A stretch of DNA of 64,000 nt, taken from positions 1 through 64,000 of the forward strand of contig JANWVY010000003.1 in NCBI GenBank assembly GCA_025056455.1, in the 5' to 3' direction. Below, in pieces: positions 46,964 to 55,282 of the stretch. Numbering within the stretch: the first letter of the stretch is position 1; every line of letters begins with the position of its first letter. The notes under the pieces were generated by a model. That model was not told where the DNA came from. It saw only the letters and a list, made by a program, of their open reading frames with translations, and ran no database searches. This DNA is from Bryobacteraceae bacterium (GTDB taxonomy: Bacteria; Acidobacteriota; Terriglobia; Bryobacterales; Bryobacteraceae). Position numbers and translations under genes: made by a program.

Positions 46964-49327
46964 ATGTCGCCATTCCTCGAGACGGTTTTCTGGCTCGTGA
47001 CTGTCTGCGCGGCCGTGGACATCCCGCAACCGGATCGAAGGCCCCTGGCCGATGAGTGGGGGTACCGGCCTTCGGATGGAGCTGTGGTTGCGCTCAACCC
47101 ACCTTCGCTCAGCTGGGTTCATGAAAAGGGTGCGGCATCCTATACGGTTGAATGGGCGCAAACGGCGGATTTTCGAAATGCTGTGTCGATTCGAAATCTC
47201 CGCTGGAGTGTTTACACGCATCATGAGACGCTGCCTCCAGGTGAGTACTGCTGGCGCTATCGCATCCACACGGTGTCTGGCGCCGTGTCTCCATGGAGCC
47301 GCGTGCGGCGGTTCCGGATTCCAGCAGAGGCGGTTGCGTTCCCGCAACCCACTTTAGCGGAGTTAAAAAGGCGGATCGGAAACGATCATCCTCGGCTGTT
47401 TTTGAGCCGGAGCGACCTTCCCCGGCTGCGGGATTACGCCACGGGCGCGGGGCGTGAGGAGTTTGCGCGTCTGCGCGCCAAAGCCGATGCTCTTCTCAAG
47501 GCAGAGCCGACACCCGAGCCCACCATCATTGGCGATCCCGACGACCCCCAAACACGCCAACATTGGTGGTCGAACCGTACGCAGGCCATTCAGGCGCTTC
47601 ACGAGGGAGAAGTGCTGAGCTTTACTTGGTTACTGACTCAAGATCCGAAGTACGTTGAAGCAGCGCGCCGCTTTGCGCTTCAACTAGCTGCTTGGAAGTT
47701 AGATGGGCCCACGAATTTCGCTGCAAACTGCGAAGCGGCCAAACCCATGCTCCACCGCTTGGCGCGCATCTACGATTGGGTCTATCCACTGTTGAGCGAA
47801 TCCGAGCGGCAAATGTTTCGCCAGGTGCTTTTGCGCCGCGCCCAGGATGCCTGGCTCAGCGGAGAAGTCCGCCAAGGTGTGGGGCATCTCAATCAACCCT
47901 ATGGAAGTCACGCCAATCGCACCTGGCACAAGCTAGCCGAAAACGCGGTGGCGACACTTGGTGAGACCCCGGAATCCGACTTGTTTCTCGAATATGCCGT
48001 GACGAAGTTCTTCGCCGCTTATCCGGTTTGGTCCGATGAAGACGGAGGATGGCACGAAGGCCTCGCTTATTTTGCGGGTTATATGACCAAGGCCACCTGG
48101 TGGATGCATCTGGCTCACCAAGCGCTGGGCATCGACGGTTTTCGCAAGCCCTTTTTCCGGCACTTTGGCGACTACGCGCTGTATTCTTCTCCACCCGGAT
48201 CGCCCGATCTCGGTTATGGCGACAATTCATACCGCTCTGTCTCGCCCGAGTGGGCCTTTCTCCACTATTTCATCCGACAAACCAAAAACCCCTATTGGGC
48301 TTGGTGGGCGAAGGAGTGGAAATTGCCAGAGAATCTCGATGAGCCCGTGTTGTCTTTTCTCTGGAGCTCGCTGGGTGAGGTGAAACCAGAGAGGCCGGCA
48401 CAGTTTCCCCCTTCCAAAGTCTTTCGAGGCACGGGCATCGCCATCCTGAATACGACGATTGAAAATGCGGCCGAGAACGTGCAAATACGCTTTAAGTCCA
48501 GCCCCATGGGACGGTGGAGTCACGGCCATGAGCCGCACAATTCGTTTACGCTCACCGCCTACGGCGAATCCCTTCTGGTGAACAATACCTATCGGGATCT
48601 TTACGGCAGTCCTTTTCACAGGGGCTGGGTGTGGAGCACACAAGCGCATAATGCGGTCCTCGTGAACCGGCAAGGACAGAAGCCGCATACAGCGGATTTT
48701 GGGGGGCAGATTCAACAGTTTGACTTGCGCGAGGGGTTGGATTACGTGGTGGGCGACGCAAGCGCTTCTTATGAAACGAAACTCCTTGGCGCCCTCCGCC
48801 ACATCGTGTTCGTGAAGCCGGATGTTGTGTTCGTGGTTGACGAGCTGGCCACGCCACAACCATCCACCTTTCAGTTCCTGCTTCACGCGCAAGTCCCCTT
48901 TACAGTTGACAGCAACCGCCAGCGGCTCAGCGTCGAGCGGGAAAAGGGAGGCGTTGTCGTCGATTACTGGTCTCGGAAGCCATTCCAATTCCGCCAGTGG
49001 ACGGGCTACGAGCCACCTCCCGACAAGCAGTATTTGCTCTCTGTCAACCGTCCGATGATTCCTGAGCAATGGCATGTGGAAGCTTCAACGCAGGAGGCTT
49101 CTGCGAACAATCTGACGGTTACCGTTTTGCGGCCGTACCGAAAAGGAAGCCGCCCGGATTCACCTCTCCAGGTCAGCAGTGGAGACAAGCGGATCGATCT
49201 GATAGTGACCAGCGCGGGCGGTGCGCCTGTCCGGGTGGTATTTCGTGATCAGGCTCTTGAGGTCCAGAAACGGAATCACTTCTGGCGGATCGTTCGCCAG
49301 CCCAAGCAGGAGTTAGGCCCTCGGTAA
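46964..49327 (+). CDS. heparinase II/III-like polysaccharide lyase with DUF4962 domain, secreted
   Basis: The 787-residue enzyme probably cleaves a uronic-acid polysaccharide by beta-elimination. It has a weak signal sequence (LETVFWLVTVCAAVDIP) and an N-terminal fibronectin-like DUF4962 part (to about 125). An alpha/alpha toroid follows (HPRLFLSRSDLPRLRDYA, then LHRLARIYDWVYPLLSE, HLNQPYGSHANRTW, DGGWHEGLAYFAGY). The heparinase II/III beta-sandwich contains MGRWSHGHEPHNSFTLTAYG, WSTQAHNAVLVN and HIVFVKPDVVFVVDEL. The Tyr, His and Asn/Arg residues expected for catalysis seem present. It is divergent from the MGMT-to-Gfo operon and convergent with a PIG-L gene. Heparan, chondroitin, alginate-like or bacterial capsule substrates are all possible. 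Confidence 0.88.
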   Translation: MSPFLETVFWLVTVCAAVDIPQPDRRPLADEWGYRPSDGAVVALNPPSLSWVHEKGAASYTVEWAQTADFRNAVSIRNLRWSVYTHHETLPPGEYCWRYRIHTVSGAVSPWSRVRRFRIPAEAVAFPQPTLAELKRRIGNDHPRLFLSRSDLPRLRDYATGAGREEFARLRAKADALLKAEPTPEPTIIGDPDDPQTRQHWWSNRTQAIQALHEGEVLSFTWLLTQDPKYVEAARRFALQLAAWKLDGPTNFAANCEAAKPMLHRLARIYDWVYPLLSESERQMFRQVLLRRAQDAWLSGEVRQGVGHLNQPYGSHANRTWHKLAENAVATLGETPESDLFLEYAVTKFFAAYPVWSDEDGGWHEGLAYFAGYMTKATWWMHLAHQALGIDGFRKPFFRHFGDYALYSSPPGSPDLGYGDNSYRSVSPEWAFLHYFIRQTKNPYWAWWAKEWKLPENLDEPVLSFLWSSLGEVKPERPAQFPPSKVFRGTGIAILNTTIENAAENVQIRFKSSPMGRWSHGHEPHNSFTLTAYGESLLVNNTYRDLYGSPFHRGWVWSTQAHNAVLVNRQGQKPHTADFGGQIQQFDLREGLDYVVGDASASYETKLLGALRHIVFVKPDVVFVVDELATPQPSTFQFLLHAQVPFTVDSNRQRLSVEREKGGVVVDYWSRKPFQFRQWTGYEPPPDKQYLLSVNRPMIPEQWHVEASTQEASANNLTVTVLRPYRKGSRPDSPLQVSSGDKRIDLIVTSAGGAPVRVVFRDQALEVQKRNHFWRIVRQPKQELGPR

Positions 49328-49387: not shown

Positions 49388-50287
49388 TTATGGCTTAGCG
49401 ATGGGCTTTGCCCGCTCTCGTACATGCGGTGGAATACGGTCCCCCGCGCCATGGTAGTTGAACTCTTCGCCGTAGCGAAAGCCATGCTTGACCCCGATGG
49501 TTTCGGCCAGCTCCTCAACCAGGGCGCGGATTAAAGCGCGGATCGAGGCGCGGTCCAAGACGGTAAGCAAGGGCGAGGATTTGCCCGCTGCCTCGAGCCG
49601 TTGTTTCACCTCGTGAGCGTAACGGCGATTGGCGGTTTCCAGCTGTTGAAGTGCGGCCACCTTCAAATGAATGTATTTAGTGATGTCGACCGGCCGAAAT
49701 TTCGCTGCCTGGTGACCGCCTTCACCCGGCCGATAGGGACGGTAAGGCGCGTAATAATAAGTTTCGGCAACGCTCACTGGCGGTAAGCCGAGTTTTGTGA
49801 ACTCCTCTCCCACGTACCGCCCGCTCCCATAAGAAAGCTCCTCGGCTGCACGCGCAGTAAAGAAGTGATCCCAGTCGGGTTCGTAGTGAATCCACGGGTC
49901 GGGGTGAAAGACGATTTGTGGTTTGTAGTGCCGCACAAACCCAAAAATCTGGTTTCGAATCTCATTGCTCGATACCTGGCCAAGTTCCCCGCTTTTGTGG
50001 TTTAGCAGATACACTTCGCGGATGCCGAGCAACCGCGCCGCCTGTTCTCCTTCCCGGTTGTTTGCAAGGCGTGTGTCGGCTGGACTCAGGCCGAGCGAGT
50101 TTTTTTCATCGTTGCCAACTTGGAGGACGTGAACCGCATAGCCTTGCTCGATGAGTGAGGCGAGGGTTCCGCCCGCCGCCATTAAATAATCGCCGGGCGT
50201 AGATGTAATCACCAAGACACTTTTGGGAGGTTGTCCGGCGGCCGGCTGCACCGGCACAAGCAGAATGGGCCAGAGCCAGCGAATCAT
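49388..50287 (-). CDS. PIG-L-family protein lacking metal ligands (pseudo-deacetylase A), secreted
   Basis: A 299-residue secreted paralogue of PIG-L/LmbE N-acetylglucosamine deacetylases. The signal peptide (WLWPILLVPVQPAAGQP) is followed by the Rossmann-like fold. At the place of the zinc motif PHxDD or HPDD it has TPGDYLMAAGG (residues 30-40), so the histidine and at least one aspartate are missing. The distal motif EPDWDHFFTARA keeps one DH pair. The rest of the fold is well kept (VLVITS, GNDEKNSLGL, EYLLNH-like VYLLNHKSGELG, HPDPWIHYE). It probably no longer deacetylates but may bind a sugar or partner. It is divergent from the intact paralogue at 50343, with TAGACT 12 bases before the ATG. 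Confidence 0.85.
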   Translation of the reverse strand: MIRWLWPILLVPVQPAAGQPPKSVLVITSTPGDYLMAAGGTLASLIEQGYAVHVLQVGNDEKNSLGLSPADTRLANNREGEQAARLLGIREVYLLNHKSGELGQVSSNEIRNQIFGFVRHYKPQIVFHPDPWIHYEPDWDHFFTARAAEELSYGSGRYVGEEFTKLGLPPVSVAETYYYAPYRPYRPGEGGHQAAKFRPVDITKYIHLKVAALQQLETANRRYAHEVKQRLEAAGKSSPLLTVLDRASIRALIRALVEELAETIGVKHGFRYGEEFNYHGAGDRIPPHVRERAKPIAKP

Positions 50288-50342
50288 GACGGAAGCGTTA
50301 GTCTATCAAGTCGCCAGCGTGATATTCTAGGGAGCACTTTTC

Positions 50343-51296
50343 GTGAAAATGGGCTTCCGTCGCACTTTCGGCAGCGGGATGTGGGCCGCTGTCTTGCTGT
50401 GCCTTGGAACGCCGTCGCAGGCGCAGGAACAACTGCCCTTGCGACCGCTACCGCCGGGTAAAACGGTTTTTGTTCTCCAGCCCCATCACGATGACCACAC
50501 TACGGACCACGGCATGGGCGGCTTAATCGCTCGCTTTGTGGACGAAGGCTACGATGTGTATTATCTTCGCGCCTCAAATGACGAAAAGGATGGCACCGCC
50601 TTGCCGGCTGAAAATGACAAGATCAACTTGCGGGAAGCGCTTGCTGCGGCCAAGGTCTTGGGAATAAAAGAAGTGATTAACCTTAACTGGCGCAACGACT
50701 ACACGGCACCTATTCCTCTCAACGAGCTGCGCGCTCAGATCATTTTTCTGATTCGCAAGTACAAACCGGATATCGTTGTGGGGCACAATCCCTGGGAACA
50801 CTATCAGAAGAATCCAGACCACCGGAACGTAGGCCGGGCCATGGCCGAGGCGTATTGGATGGCGGGCTTAGAAAACGTGCACCCCGAGCATTTTTTGCTC
50901 GGGGTTCAGCCCCATGCTGCTTCGTATTTAATTGGCAAGGCCCGTCTTGATTGGGGGCTGGGGCACCGCCCCAACGTCTTTTTTGAACTCAACGCCGAAC
51001 AGGTGCGCCGCAAACAAATCGCCTATCACACGCACCGCAACGTGTATGCGAATCCCGCCACGGCGCGAGCCATGCGCGCCGAGCTGGCCCGGCTCGGTCT
51101 GTATCTTCCCGAATGGGAGGCTTTGGATGATCAGGAGGCAGCTGTCCTGATGGAGGCCTGGCACATGGAGTGGATTTCGCGTCAGCGTGGCCGCCAAGCG
51201 GGAGTCGAATTTGCCGAAGACTACTACTTCATGGATGAATTCGATCACTTGCCGGGCCTGAAGGCGTATCTCCAGCAACACGTACGCACACCATGA
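50343..51296 (+). CDS. PIG-L-family deacetylase with intact metal motif, secreted
   Basis: This 317-residue protein is the only one of three paralogues here with a complete active site: PHHDDHTTDHGMGG (residues 47-60) and the distal NPDHRNVGRA. It should remove an acetyl group from an N-acetyl amino sugar or a similar conjugate, using zinc. A signal peptide (to about residue 28) places it outside the cytoplasm. GTG 50343, with GGGAG 8 bases upstream, is a good start; ATG 50349 is possible. It resembles PIG-L enzymes of Planctomycetota and Acidobacteriota. Its stop overlaps the start of a degenerate paralogue by ATGA, so the two are made together. Confidence 0.9.
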   Translation: MKMGFRRTFGSGMWAAVLLCLGTPSQAQEQLPLRPLPPGKTVFVLQPHHDDHTTDHGMGGLIARFVDEGYDVYYLRASNDEKDGTALPAENDKINLREALAAAKVLGIKEVINLNWRNDYTAPIPLNELRAQIIFLIRKYKPDIVVGHNPWEHYQKNPDHRNVGRAMAEAYWMAGLENVHPEHFLLGVQPHAASYLIGKARLDWGLGHRPNVFFELNAEQVRRKQIAYHTHRNVYANPATARAMRAELARLGLYLPEWEALDDQEAAVLMEAWHMEWISRQRGRQAGVEFAEDYYFMDEFDHLPGLKAYLQQHVRTP

Positions 51297-52180
51297 GCCG
51301 CAGCACCCTTCGTTTCTTCGCCTTCTGGCTGTTCGGTGGTTTGCTGGCGGCGCAGCAAAAGGTTCTGGTGATTTCCGCCGATAGCGCAAACCTGGTCCTT
51401 TCGGCCGGAGGCCTGCTGGCTGGGATGGCACGCGCGGGAGCCGACGTGTGGTGGGTACGTGTCACTAATGACGAGAAGGACTCCTGGAAGCTCGCGCCCG
51501 AGGAGACAGCGCTGCGCAGCCGCCGAGAGAGCGAAGCTGCGGCCAAGCTGCTGGGTTTCCGGCAGGTCATCCACTTAGGCTACCGCGCGGGCGAACTGGC
51601 AGAGACGCCGTTCACCACGCTGCGGGATCGTCTTGTGATTTTCATCCGGCATTATCGGCCTAACGTGCTCTTCATCCCCAATCCATACACCGAGTATGAC
51701 CGGGTTCTGGACCGTTTCTATACCGGCCGGGCCGCAGAAGATGCCTGGCGCGCGGCGGCCATCGAAAACTTCGTACCGCCCTTCACGCACCTGGGCCTGG
51801 CGCCTCACCGCGCCGGCGAGATTTATTATTACGCCCAGCCGCTAGATCCGCAGCGCCGTCAAGCCGAGAGCACATCGACGTTTGTGCCGCAACCGAAGGT
51901 GGTCGATATCACCCCGATGCTCGAAACCAAGATCCGTGCGGCTCAGGCGCTGACCACCAGCAACGAAGCCATGGCTCAAGCTCTAAAAGCCCGCCTGGAA
52001 ACTACAGGACGCCGCTTACCCCTGTTAGACACGTTAGCTCCTGCCTCCATTCAGAAGCTCGTTGAGGAAAACGTGCGCGGTCTAGCCAAGCTCTGCGCCC
52101 AGGGCACGTCTTACTCGGCGGCCGAGGAGTTCCACTATGCAGGAGTTGAGTTTCGTATTCCTCGCAAATACCGTGAGTAA
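51293..52180 (+). CDS. PIG-L-family protein lacking metal ligands (pseudo-deacetylase B), secreted
   Basis: The 295-residue paralogue starts in the stop codon of the intact deacetylase (ATGA). After a signal peptide (RFFAFWLFGGLLAAQQ), the first strand leads into SADSANLVLSAGG (residues 28-40), where the family zinc motif HPDD should stand; all of its ligands are gone. The distal motif is EYDRVLDRFYTGRAAE, again without the PDH triad. Otherwise it is close to the pseudo-deacetylase at 49388 (VTNDEKDSWKLAPEET, VVDITPMLETKIRAAQAL), so these two are probably sisters. The coupling suggests a complex with the active subunit. A formamidase-family gene follows after 67 bases. Confidence 0.87.
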   Translation: MSRSTLRFFAFWLFGGLLAAQQKVLVISADSANLVLSAGGLLAGMARAGADVWWVRVTNDEKDSWKLAPEETALRSRRESEAAAKLLGFRQVIHLGYRAGELAETPFTTLRDRLVIFIRHYRPNVLFIPNPYTEYDRVLDRFYTGRAAEDAWRAAAIENFVPPFTHLGLAPHRAGEIYYYAQPLDPQRRQAESTSTFVPQPKVVDITPMLETKIRAAQALTTSNEAMAQALKARLETTGRRLPLLDTLAPASIQKLVEENVRGLAKLCAQGTSYSAAEEFHYAGVEFRIPRKYRE

Positions 52181-52247
52181 ATCCTTTCCGACATCTCCGG
52201 TGCACGATGTCTGGCGCAGTCGCGCCGCGTGGAGAGAGAATGGACGG

Positions 52248-53255
52248 ATGCGCCGATTGGTCGTCCTTGGCTTTGCGACAGCGATAGGCCTCATCGCAGC
52301 AGATCACCGTGTGGTGAATGAAGTCAACTATCACACGTTTTCTACCGAACATCCCATTCAAGCGAGGCTCCGGTCCGGGGACCGCGTGATTACGAAAACT
52401 GTCGATTCGGCCGGATTTGACCTCCATGGTGTGCGCCACACCAAGACTCATGGCAACCCGCTGACCGGTCCTTTTTTCATCGAAGGGGCCGAGCCTGGCG
52501 ATGCGATTGCCGTCCATCTCGAACGCGTCCGGTTGAACCGCACCACGGGTTACACTGCCTTTCAAGTGGGTGCCCTCACGCCAGGCGCCAAAACGAAATA
52601 TGCGCCGCCGCCCTATGAAGAGGGGGCGGTTCTACCCGGACGCACCGATTTGATTCCCTTTGTTCTGGATGTCAAAACCGGAAGCGCACGCCCGAAACGG
52701 CCCTTGAGCAAACGCTTGGATCTGCAGTTTCGCGCTGTTCCCATGCTGGGCTGTATTGGAGTAGCTCCGGGCATGGAGCCAGCGCCCACCTCGGGCCCAG
52801 CGGGCTCTTATGGAGGCAACCTTGACTACAAGGAAGTCCGCGAGGGCACGACCGTGCTGCTTCCCGTGTTCGTACCAGGCGCCTTTCTCTTTGTTGGCGA
52901 TGGGCATGCGCTTCAAGGCGATGGCGAGGCAGTGGGCTCGGGAATTGAGACTTCGCTTGACGTCCAGTTCACGGTTACGCTGCGCAAAAACGCCCGCCTC
53001 ACCAATCCGCGCCTTGAAAACTCAGAGTTCCTCATCAGCCTCGCGGCGCGGACCTCAAGCCAGCCCGCTTGGAATGAACTGTTCGCGCTTGCCAACAGCG
53101 ACATGCTGCGCTGGCTGGTCGAAGAATATGACGTCGAGCCGGTCGCAGCACATTTATTGATCGGTCATGAGGCCAAGTATGACGTGGCGGCTTTGAGCGG
53201 AGTTTTGGCCGTGCGGATTCCTAAACGCGCCCTCTCGCGCAAAGCGCAGCCCTAG
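52248..53255 (+). CDS. acetamidase/formamidase family protein, exported
   Basis: The 335-residue FmdA/AmdA-type protein hydrolyses a short amide such as formamide or acetamide in characterised members. Family segments are VDSAGFDLHGVR, NPLTGPFFIEGAEPGDAIAVHL, PMLGCIGVAP, GPAGSYGGNLD and GDGHALQGDGE, all in the normal order. ATG 52248 is chosen because it gives a signal-like N-terminus (MRRLVVLGFATAIGLIAA); the upstream extension to 52137 overlaps the previous gene and is not family-like. It follows the two PIG-L genes closely. Together they could process N-acyl groups, with the amide released being cleaved here, but this is inference. Confidence 0.9.
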   Translation: MRRLVVLGFATAIGLIAADHRVVNEVNYHTFSTEHPIQARLRSGDRVITKTVDSAGFDLHGVRHTKTHGNPLTGPFFIEGAEPGDAIAVHLERVRLNRTTGYTAFQVGALTPGAKTKYAPPPYEEGAVLPGRTDLIPFVLDVKTGSARPKRPLSKRLDLQFRAVPMLGCIGVAPGMEPAPTSGPAGSYGGNLDYKEVREGTTVLLPVFVPGAFLFVGDGHALQGDGEAVGSGIETSLDVQFTVTLRKNARLTNPRLENSEFLISLAARTSSQPAWNELFALANSDMLRWLVEEYDVEPVAAHLLIGHEAKYDVAALSGVLAVRIPKRALSRKAQP

Positions 53256-54082: not shown

Positions 54083-55282
54083 TTAGGATCCGCGACCCGG
54101 CGCATACCAACTGCGGGCGGGTGCCGAATACGCGATGTTGAGCTCGGGCGTCTCAATCCGTTTGCCGTTTTCGTATCCCGAATCCATCAAAGCCGCGAGG
54201 GCGCCGGTTACCAGCAGCGTGCGCTCGGCAGGAATCACGGCCTTACCAGTTTCAACCATGCGGCGGATGCCATGCACCAGCATCGAAAAATTGTTGGAAT
54301 TCTCACGGGGAATGTAGCACAGCGTCGCCGCCGCCGGCTTTCCTTTCGGCTGAAGGGCGACAAGATACTCGGAAACTTCACTTAGCGCCAGAACAGCTCC
54401 TCGAAAGCCATCGCGGTAATCAATTAGGCCAAGCACAGCGCGCATCTGCTCTGGCGGTATTTGGGGTTTCGCTGTCTCGCTGCATGCCAGCGCTCGATCG
54501 AGCAAAGCGCGGTTCCAAAGGCCTTCCGAGGCCGCTTGCCAGACGCGTTCTCCCTTCAGCAGCTGCACGGCTTGAATGCCCGTTTCGCCACCCTTGCGGC
54601 GCTCGACGAAAGCCTGCAAGGTTTCAAGGATATGAAAAATGCCGCCATCGGCCACCCAGCCGCCTCCCACGGAAAGGGCGCCTTCGAGTTCCACGCCTCG
54701 GGGTGGGTCATATTCTGGGCGGCGGAAGGTTACTGGAACGCTCGATCCGGCCATCAAAGGAAAGCGCAACTCGCGCGACCAGTTAAACATCTGTTTGGCC
54801 TTTTGCCAGTCATAAGACAGATGCTTGTCAACAAAAACAGGACAGCCAGCTTTGCTTGCGCGAAACACTTTCACCACTTCTTGAAAGAATTCAAAACGCG
54901 GGTAGAGCTGCTGTTGTTTTTCATTGTGTGGATAATCGCCGTGTTCGCACACTAATAACACGCCATCCACTGCCAGCTTACCTGTGCCAAGCGTAAGCGC
55001 TTCCTCAATCGAATGGCAAAGCCGCACGTTGTACGCCTGGCACAACCGCCGGCCAATGTCGGCGGGATGTAACTGGTGCATCCAAAGCGAAGCCACTTCG
55101 AAAGGAGGCGGAAAATAGTCGTCGTTGATCCAGTAGCCTTCGAGAAATCGCGTGATGAAATTATCTGAGTGCGAGCGCACATGATAGGTGGATGACAGGC
55201 AGGCCAGCCGCTTTCTTCTACCTTGGCCGTTCAGCGTAAACGGCCAGCTGGCGACGACTGCCGGAAAATCACGCCGTCGCAT
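54083..55282 (-). CDS. exported Gfo/Idh/MocA-like protein of unknown function
   Basis: A 399-residue protein with a twin-arginine-like N-terminus (MRRRDFPAVVASW). The middle looks like a Gfo/Idh/MocA protein: DGVLLVCEHGDYP, CPVFVDKHLSYDWQKAKQM (where the canonical EKP is DKH) and FPLMAGSSVPVTFRRPE, followed by a beta-rich half with GGGWVADGGIFHILETLQAF. The usual GxGxxG nucleotide loop is absent near the start. Such proteins are found in Acidobacteriota and Planctomycetota as conserved hypotheticals. It may be a binding protein derived from a sugar oxidoreductase. It lies next to the SMP-30-like gene and 2 bases from the dipeptidase, on one minus-strand transcript. Confidence 0.72.
   Translation of the reverse strand: MRRRDFPAVVASWPFTLNGQGRRKRLACLSSTYHVRSHSDNFITRFLEGYWINDDYFPPPFEVASLWMHQLHPADIGRRLCQAYNVRLCHSIEEALTLGTGKLAVDGVLLVCEHGDYPHNEKQQQLYPRFEFFQEVVKVFRASKAGCPVFVDKHLSYDWQKAKQMFNWSRELRFPLMAGSSVPVTFRRPEYDPPRGVELEGALSVGGGWVADGGIFHILETLQAFVERRKGGETGIQAVQLLKGERVWQAASEGLWNRALLDRALACSETAKPQIPPEQMRAVLGLIDYRDGFRGAVLALSEVSEYLVALQPKGKPAAATLCYIPRENSNNFSMLVHGIRRMVETGKAVIPAERTLLVTGALAALMDSGYENGKRIETPELNIAYSAPARSWYAPGRGS

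Follow-up and report, generated by a model that had tools for sequence, protein, structure and literature searches.

A putative exported deacetylase set of one intact and two degenerate PIG-L paralogues in Bryobacteraceae

In proteins of the PIG-L/LmbE-like superfamily, the metal-binding and catalytic residues are those of an HxDD motif and a downstream His (PMC4101496, in the part of the text available). Among relatives with solved structures, the diacetylchitobiose deacetylase of Pyrococcus (Dac; family CE14; PDB 8bgn, 8bgo, 3wl4, and 3we7) is a single protein assembled as a homohexamer, a dimer of trimers (PMC9779004, in its available sections). In other families, active subunits are reported to associate with related inactive ones, as in the myotubularins with the inactive MTMR12 and the heteromeric pantothenate kinase of apicomplexans (PMC3688503 and PMC8366970, both in excerpt). 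Here we describe three adjacent PIG-L genes, designated A, B, and C, in a 64,000-nucleotide stretch of DNA from a Bryobacteraceae bacterium (GenBank assembly GCA_025056455.1, contig JANWVY010000003.1, positions 1 to 64,000), hereafter the window. B is intact, and A and C are degenerate. We favor, as fairly probable, the reading that they make up an exported deacetylase set in which the active B has the dead paralogues A and C as its dedicated partners, probably as subunits. The evidence for this comes from sequence, namely conserved degeneracy, intermediate stages of loss, co-occurrence, coupling of B to C, natural single open reading frames (ORFs) for B with C and for paired A genes (A1 and A2), and purifying selection, together with a predicted fold for C that is intact.

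A (49388–50287, minus strand) encodes 299 amino acids, B (50343–51296, plus strand) 317 amino acids from a GTG start at 50343, an ATG at 50349 also being possible, and C (51293–52180, plus strand) 295 amino acids. A sequence-only reading of the window had named three PIG-L paralogues here, and all three ORFs indeed score above the Pfam PIG-L gathering cut-off of 28.2 bits (60.7, 72.1, and 50.1 bits for A, B, and C, respectively) and carry the motifs quoted in that reading. A and C are the closest pair (169 bits, 40 percent identity), compared to 85 bits and 33 percent identity for A and B and 87–88 bits for B and C. A hydrophobic, signal-like N-terminal stretch is common to the three proteins, which are probably exported. 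The ATGA overlap that had been claimed between the active gene and the second degenerate gene was confirmed at 51293–51296 (plus strand), where the stop of B and the start of C are coupled. A lies on the minus strand and is divergent from B across a 55-base gap (50288–50342), presumably a shared promoter region, and the three genes are therefore not one operon; the operon consists of B and C.

Active-site residues were mapped from family-profile alignments to Dac, which is the best match with a solved structure for the A, B, and C families. The positions of Dac His40, Asp42 (catalytic), Asp43, and His151 are occupied in B by the identical residues H46, D48, D49, and H158, found in the HxDD motif H46-H-D48-D49 (50484–50495, plus strand; two ligands and the catalytic Asp) and in N-P-D157-H158 (50811–50822, plus strand; third zinc ligand). 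B differs from Dac in that its motif reads HHDDH with a two-residue insertion. In A, the corresponding residues are T30, G32, D33, and H141; the Asp ligand is kept in T30-P-G32-D33 at the HxDD place (50189–50200, minus strand), the His ligand and the catalytic Asp are gone, and the last His is present in D140-H141 at the PDH place (49865–49870, minus strand). In C, they are D30, A32, N33, and R141 (D30-S-A32-N33 at 51380–51391 and D140-R141 at 51710–51715, both plus strand), all three zinc ligands and the catalytic Asp being replaced. The HxDD motif and downstream His that characterize the superfamily (CE14) are thus complete in B and incomplete in A and C, which are PIG-L homologues by fold and sequence and not catalytic members by motif. 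Where Dac is one protein, the genes here specify one intact paralogue and two dead ones that have lost catalytic residues. The sequence-only reading had two of the paralogues without a zinc site, and the alignment to Dac bears this out for C, which has lost every ligand, and for the A family, with B intact; for the A of the window it was slightly overstated, given that one ligand (T30) and the catalytic Asp (G32) are lost and D33 and D140-H141 are kept.

This pattern extends over the three families. Among 49 unique A domains, the first His is gone in 47, the catalytic Asp in all 49, and the last His in 43, the window's A being among the six that retain it; the Asp ligand at the Dac Asp43 position is Asp in 48, and D140 is invariant. 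Among 36 unique C domains, the first His is gone in 35 and replaced by Asp in 33, the catalytic Asp is gone in all 36 (five of them with a gap at the column), the last His is gone in 34 and replaced by Arg in 31, Asp or Asn stands at the Dac Asp43 position in 31, and D140 is again invariant. The His, Asp, Asp, His set of B is complete in 56 of 57 unique domains, and the 57th, from locus L132, is truncated and unscorable. Substitutions of like kind are seen at matching positions in different genera, which excludes chance. Each degenerate family also has its own conserved loop, RPYRxGEGG in A and DPRRxExxxxFxPQP in C. An Asp-Arg pair, formed by the residues at the first- and third-ligand positions, would probably replace zinc in C. 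In three C sequences, Arg seemingly occupies the second-ligand position and Ser the third, which would be in keeping with a shift of the charge; a one-residue gap leaves their alignment uncertain. As a separate observation on B, Gly replaces the Asp beside the last His in five of the 56 domains (HDDGH pattern; L117 4153–6184, L118 5973–8001, and L121 3–1067).

To place these families, 124 domains were put into a tree by a quick IQ-TREE run with active-site columns included; after dereplication at 78 percent identity, 36 of them were A, 34 were B, and 24 were C, and the other 30 were further PIG-L domains. A, B, and C each fell on one side of a branch, with Shimodaira–Hasegawa-like approximate likelihood ratio test (SH-aLRT) values of 100, 100, and 98, and A and C grouped together at 96, consistent with descent of A and C from a shared ancestor. 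Loci L142 and L143 are early branches in the A, B, and C families alike. The A and C of L143 retain the His, Asp, His metal triad, with Glu in place of the catalytic Asp; in L142, A keeps the triad with Gly at the catalytic Asp, and C has Tyr, Glu, Asp, and Arg. These states suggest that the catalytic Asp disappeared before the metal ligands did, in A and in C separately. The carboxylates retained in both families, and the full metal triad with Glu in L143, could instead be read as signs that A and C carry out a different catalysis, either with another metal held by carboxylates (D30, D33 or N33, and D140 in C; D33, D138, and D140 in A) or without metal. The Arg at the third-ligand position of most C proteins disfavors a cation there, however, no cluster of conserved His or Cys residues stands in for the site, and we consider this explanation improbable.

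The three families also travel together. In a survey of 150 genomes of the window's family, in which at most 15–16 candidates were scored per genome and a weak member could be missed, A and C were found in an identical set of 19 genomes, of which 18 also have B. Members were set off from the remaining candidates by score (at least about 220 bits for A, with the next group at 155; at least about 277 for C, next 138; at least 378 for B, next 212). The one genome of the 19 without B is G135, whose contig starts inside the cluster (locus L140). A scan of a named genome collection with the C alignment, which relies on two short peptide patterns, may omit records near the window's genome, and is not exhaustive, gave at least 35 loci, all from Acidobacteria or its groups (Bryobacterales, Bryobacteraceae, and similar metagenome-assembled genomes [MAGs]). 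A phylum-wide search of 396 genomes with a C profile matched only the window's genome, only three of the genomes listed being of the window's family. Of the 36 distinct C loci (the window and the 35 others), 32 have B immediately upstream of C and three have the two fused, and at one, a contig edge, B is not visible. The exact 4-base overlap of B and C is present at 32 of the 32 loci where the genes are separate (31 by script, L141 by reading of the sequence). The single B+C ORFs are those of L132, L142, and L143; L132, which contains just the end of B, shares its MAG with L143. The sequence-only reading had raised the question of whether degenerate members always sit beside an intact one, and in the genomes examined none was found without an intact partner except in the contig-edge case of G135/L140.

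The dominant layouts are A/BC and A1A2/B1B2C, with B, C, and A in this order on one strand in four loci, A1 and A2 in one ORF in five, and three B genes in one. The joined A1 and A2 pseudoenzymes (L124, L127, L128, L129, and L136) measure about 550 amino acids or more, and L112 (2230–6111, with 181–2216) brings together six PIG-L paralogues as AA/BBBC, three of them B. A is present at 29 of the 36 loci, and the other seven lie in genomes with A elsewhere: L119 and L134 correspond to genomes G033 and G026 of the survey, and A was also found in all seven genomes searched separately for the rest. In G026, a pair of A genes sits in the middle of an 898-kb contig, apart from B1B2C. The occurrence of A away from B and C would also be expected if A and C were free exported proteins that bind sugars or regulate, with the old active-site pocket now binding the substrate or product of B in the manner of a lectin. 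Such a role would account for the conserved loops of both families and for the Asp that never varies in their third-ligand motif, and genes for sulfatases or heparinase-like proteins do occur among the neighbors, though without enrichment over controls. The B+C fusions and the 4-base coupling at every other scorable locus argue for a fixed ratio of the two proteins, however, and we regard free binding proteins as unlikely, with some chance of being right.

The loss of catalytic residues might also mark A and C as duplicates in decay that persist through linkage to B, and two irregular genes are in line with this, an A copy of L092 (1681–2475) that ends early and the A2 of L090, which has an odd start. 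The ratio of nonsynonymous to synonymous substitution rates (dN/dS) was estimated for 15 locus pairs with our own script for the Nei-Gojobori method, pairs with a proportion of synonymous differences (pS) of 0.7 or more being left out of the medians. Median values for A, B, and C were 0.107, 0.116, and 0.140, and the highest single values were 0.26, 0.25, and 0.39, respectively, the last at low divergence (L078/L131). These estimates indicate that all three genes are under purifying selection; relaxed selection in relatives was not seen in the 15 pairs, and the expectation that the degenerate proteins are maintained held. Low dN/dS, the near full-length open frames of the other aligned members, the substitutions recurring in many genera, and co-retention without linkage all speak against decay, to which we give almost no credence. 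Recurrent substitution in many genera together with a dN/dS of about 0.1 likewise led us to reject sequencing error and pseudogene decay.

An AlphaFold2 model of C (predicted local distance difference test [pLDDT] score 91.0, predicted template modeling [pTM] score 0.88) has a full PIG-L fold that agrees with that of the Dac subunit, the hexameric diacetylchitobiose deacetylase being its nearest match. The fold had been described as well kept, which stands for C by this model. B shares its fold family and metal motif with BshB, MshB, and TT1542 of the LmbE-like superfamily (PMC4101496, in the same part). An identity of B with bacillithiol BshB was rejected, since B scores 59.0 bits against an NCBIfam equivalog cut-off of 182.5 for BshB1 and 33.5 against 195.25 for BshB2, far below both, and A and C score lower.

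If A and C are dedicated partners of B, the locus would encode an exported amino-sugar N-deacetylase set made up of B, as a zinc-dependent, CE14-like PIG-L enzyme, and the pseudoenzymes A and C. The three may assemble into a mixed oligomer on the plan of the Dac hexamer, a dimer of trimers; catalysis would fall to B alone, and the family-specific loops and conserved C-terminal tails of A and C would let these two provide structure, bind substrate, or act as a gate. These tails are EEFN...P in A (49430–49468, minus strand) and EEFxxAG...P in C (52124–52162, plus strand), and the Dac tail that corresponds to the latter reaches a neighboring subunit (PMC9779004, in its available sections). The substrate is probably an N-acetylglucosamine (GlcNAc)-type oligosaccharide derived from a polysaccharide. 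A further proposal, whose chances we judge clearly short of even, is an obligate hetero-oligomeric deacetylase derived from a homomeric CE14 hexamer, with one catalytic and two (at other loci three) dead subunits, the catalytic Asp lost before the ligands, an Asp-Arg salt bridge in the place of zinc in C, and the dead subunits holding or feeding a longer substrate chain.

Several observations weigh against A and C being subunits of B. The natural B+C fusion, modeled as one chain, gave a pTM of 0.60 and a mean pLDDT of 76.6, with only three alignment rows over the C half, and showed no definite packing. The residue of the B tail that might answer to the trans-acting His259 of Dac is a His in no more than 19 of 27 B sequences and lies one residue off in a weak tail alignment, and no conserved His stands at a similar tail position in A or C; donation of a catalytic His to B by a dead subunit is accordingly unsupported. 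Distance correlations over 28 loci (0.49 for A-C, 0.52 for A-B, and 0.75 for B-C) can be explained by shared descent alone and are no evidence of contact. In addition, the number of genes per locus varies (A/BC, AA/BBC, and AA/BBBC), and A is divergently transcribed in most loci.

Neighboring genes vary by locus, no family being found near more than nine of 37 loci once out-of-frame or antisense ORFs overlapping the cluster are set aside. A comparison of 36 cluster loci (window not counted) with 18 control PIG-L loci gave no clear enrichment: a sulfatase was near seven cluster loci vs. two controls, a TonB-receptor-like gene near nine vs. four, and an acetamidase-like gene near three vs. none. 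A functional link to a conserved neighbor was rejected on these grounds; the neighbors give hints of amino-sugar polysaccharides. In the window, a DUF4962 protein with a heparinase II/III-like C-terminal part (46964–49327) is convergent with A and has no match near the cluster in the 36 other loci, and an acetamidase/formamidase-family ORF (52137–53255) overlaps the end of C in another frame when taken from its first possible start, with relatives near the cluster in three of the 36 other loci (L069, L137, and L139). A sulfatase-family ORF precedes the first B in L117 and L118, its end lying 4 bases ahead of that gene's open frame, and the sulfatase-family ORF of L117 matches the Pfam families Sulfatase and N-sulphoglucosamine sulphohydrolase C-terminal. 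The window also holds a 399-amino acid protein without a Pfam or NCBIfam match (54083–55282), which has look-alike ORFs close to the cluster in L078, L092, and L131, and three large ORFs similar to a TonB-receptor-like protein of L073 (12020–15358, 34400–37447, and 56492–59926).

Other PIG-L genes were met in passing. A separate cluster of a single-domain and a tandem two-domain protein occurs at L072 (177–2515), L076 (9300–11725), L098 (8020–10358), and L099 (3448–5795), and in L098 the HxDD motif and downstream DH are kept in all three domains. The window's genome has seven further PIG-L genes; a regular expression for the motif, applied to six of them, matched two, from which nothing was drawn.

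Dead subunits beside active ones are of a known kind in other protein families, and we found none described for PIG-L/LmbE. In the myotubularin and pantothenate kinase heteromers, folds and chemistry differ from those considered here, and association has been reported there (in the excerpts cited), whereas here we infer it. The sequence-only reading had held that a subunit set of pseudo-deacetylases is not a described system, and among the open-access papers listed in our searches we found no description of a PIG-L/LmbE set with inactive paralogues or subunits; the available part of the LmbE review contains neither the word 'inactive' nor the word 'lack' (PMC4101496). Should the three proteins prove to form a complex, theirs would, within the reach of our searches, be the first assembly of enzyme and pseudoenzyme to be described for PIG-L/LmbE proteins. 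The early-branching relatives preserve intermediate states of active-site loss, and, if the proposal is true, the passage from a homo-oligomer to a hetero-oligomer with dead subunits, and the role of those subunits, would be directly testable. For annotation, these clusters carry a warning, as most of the PIG-L genes in them are unlikely to encode deacetylases.
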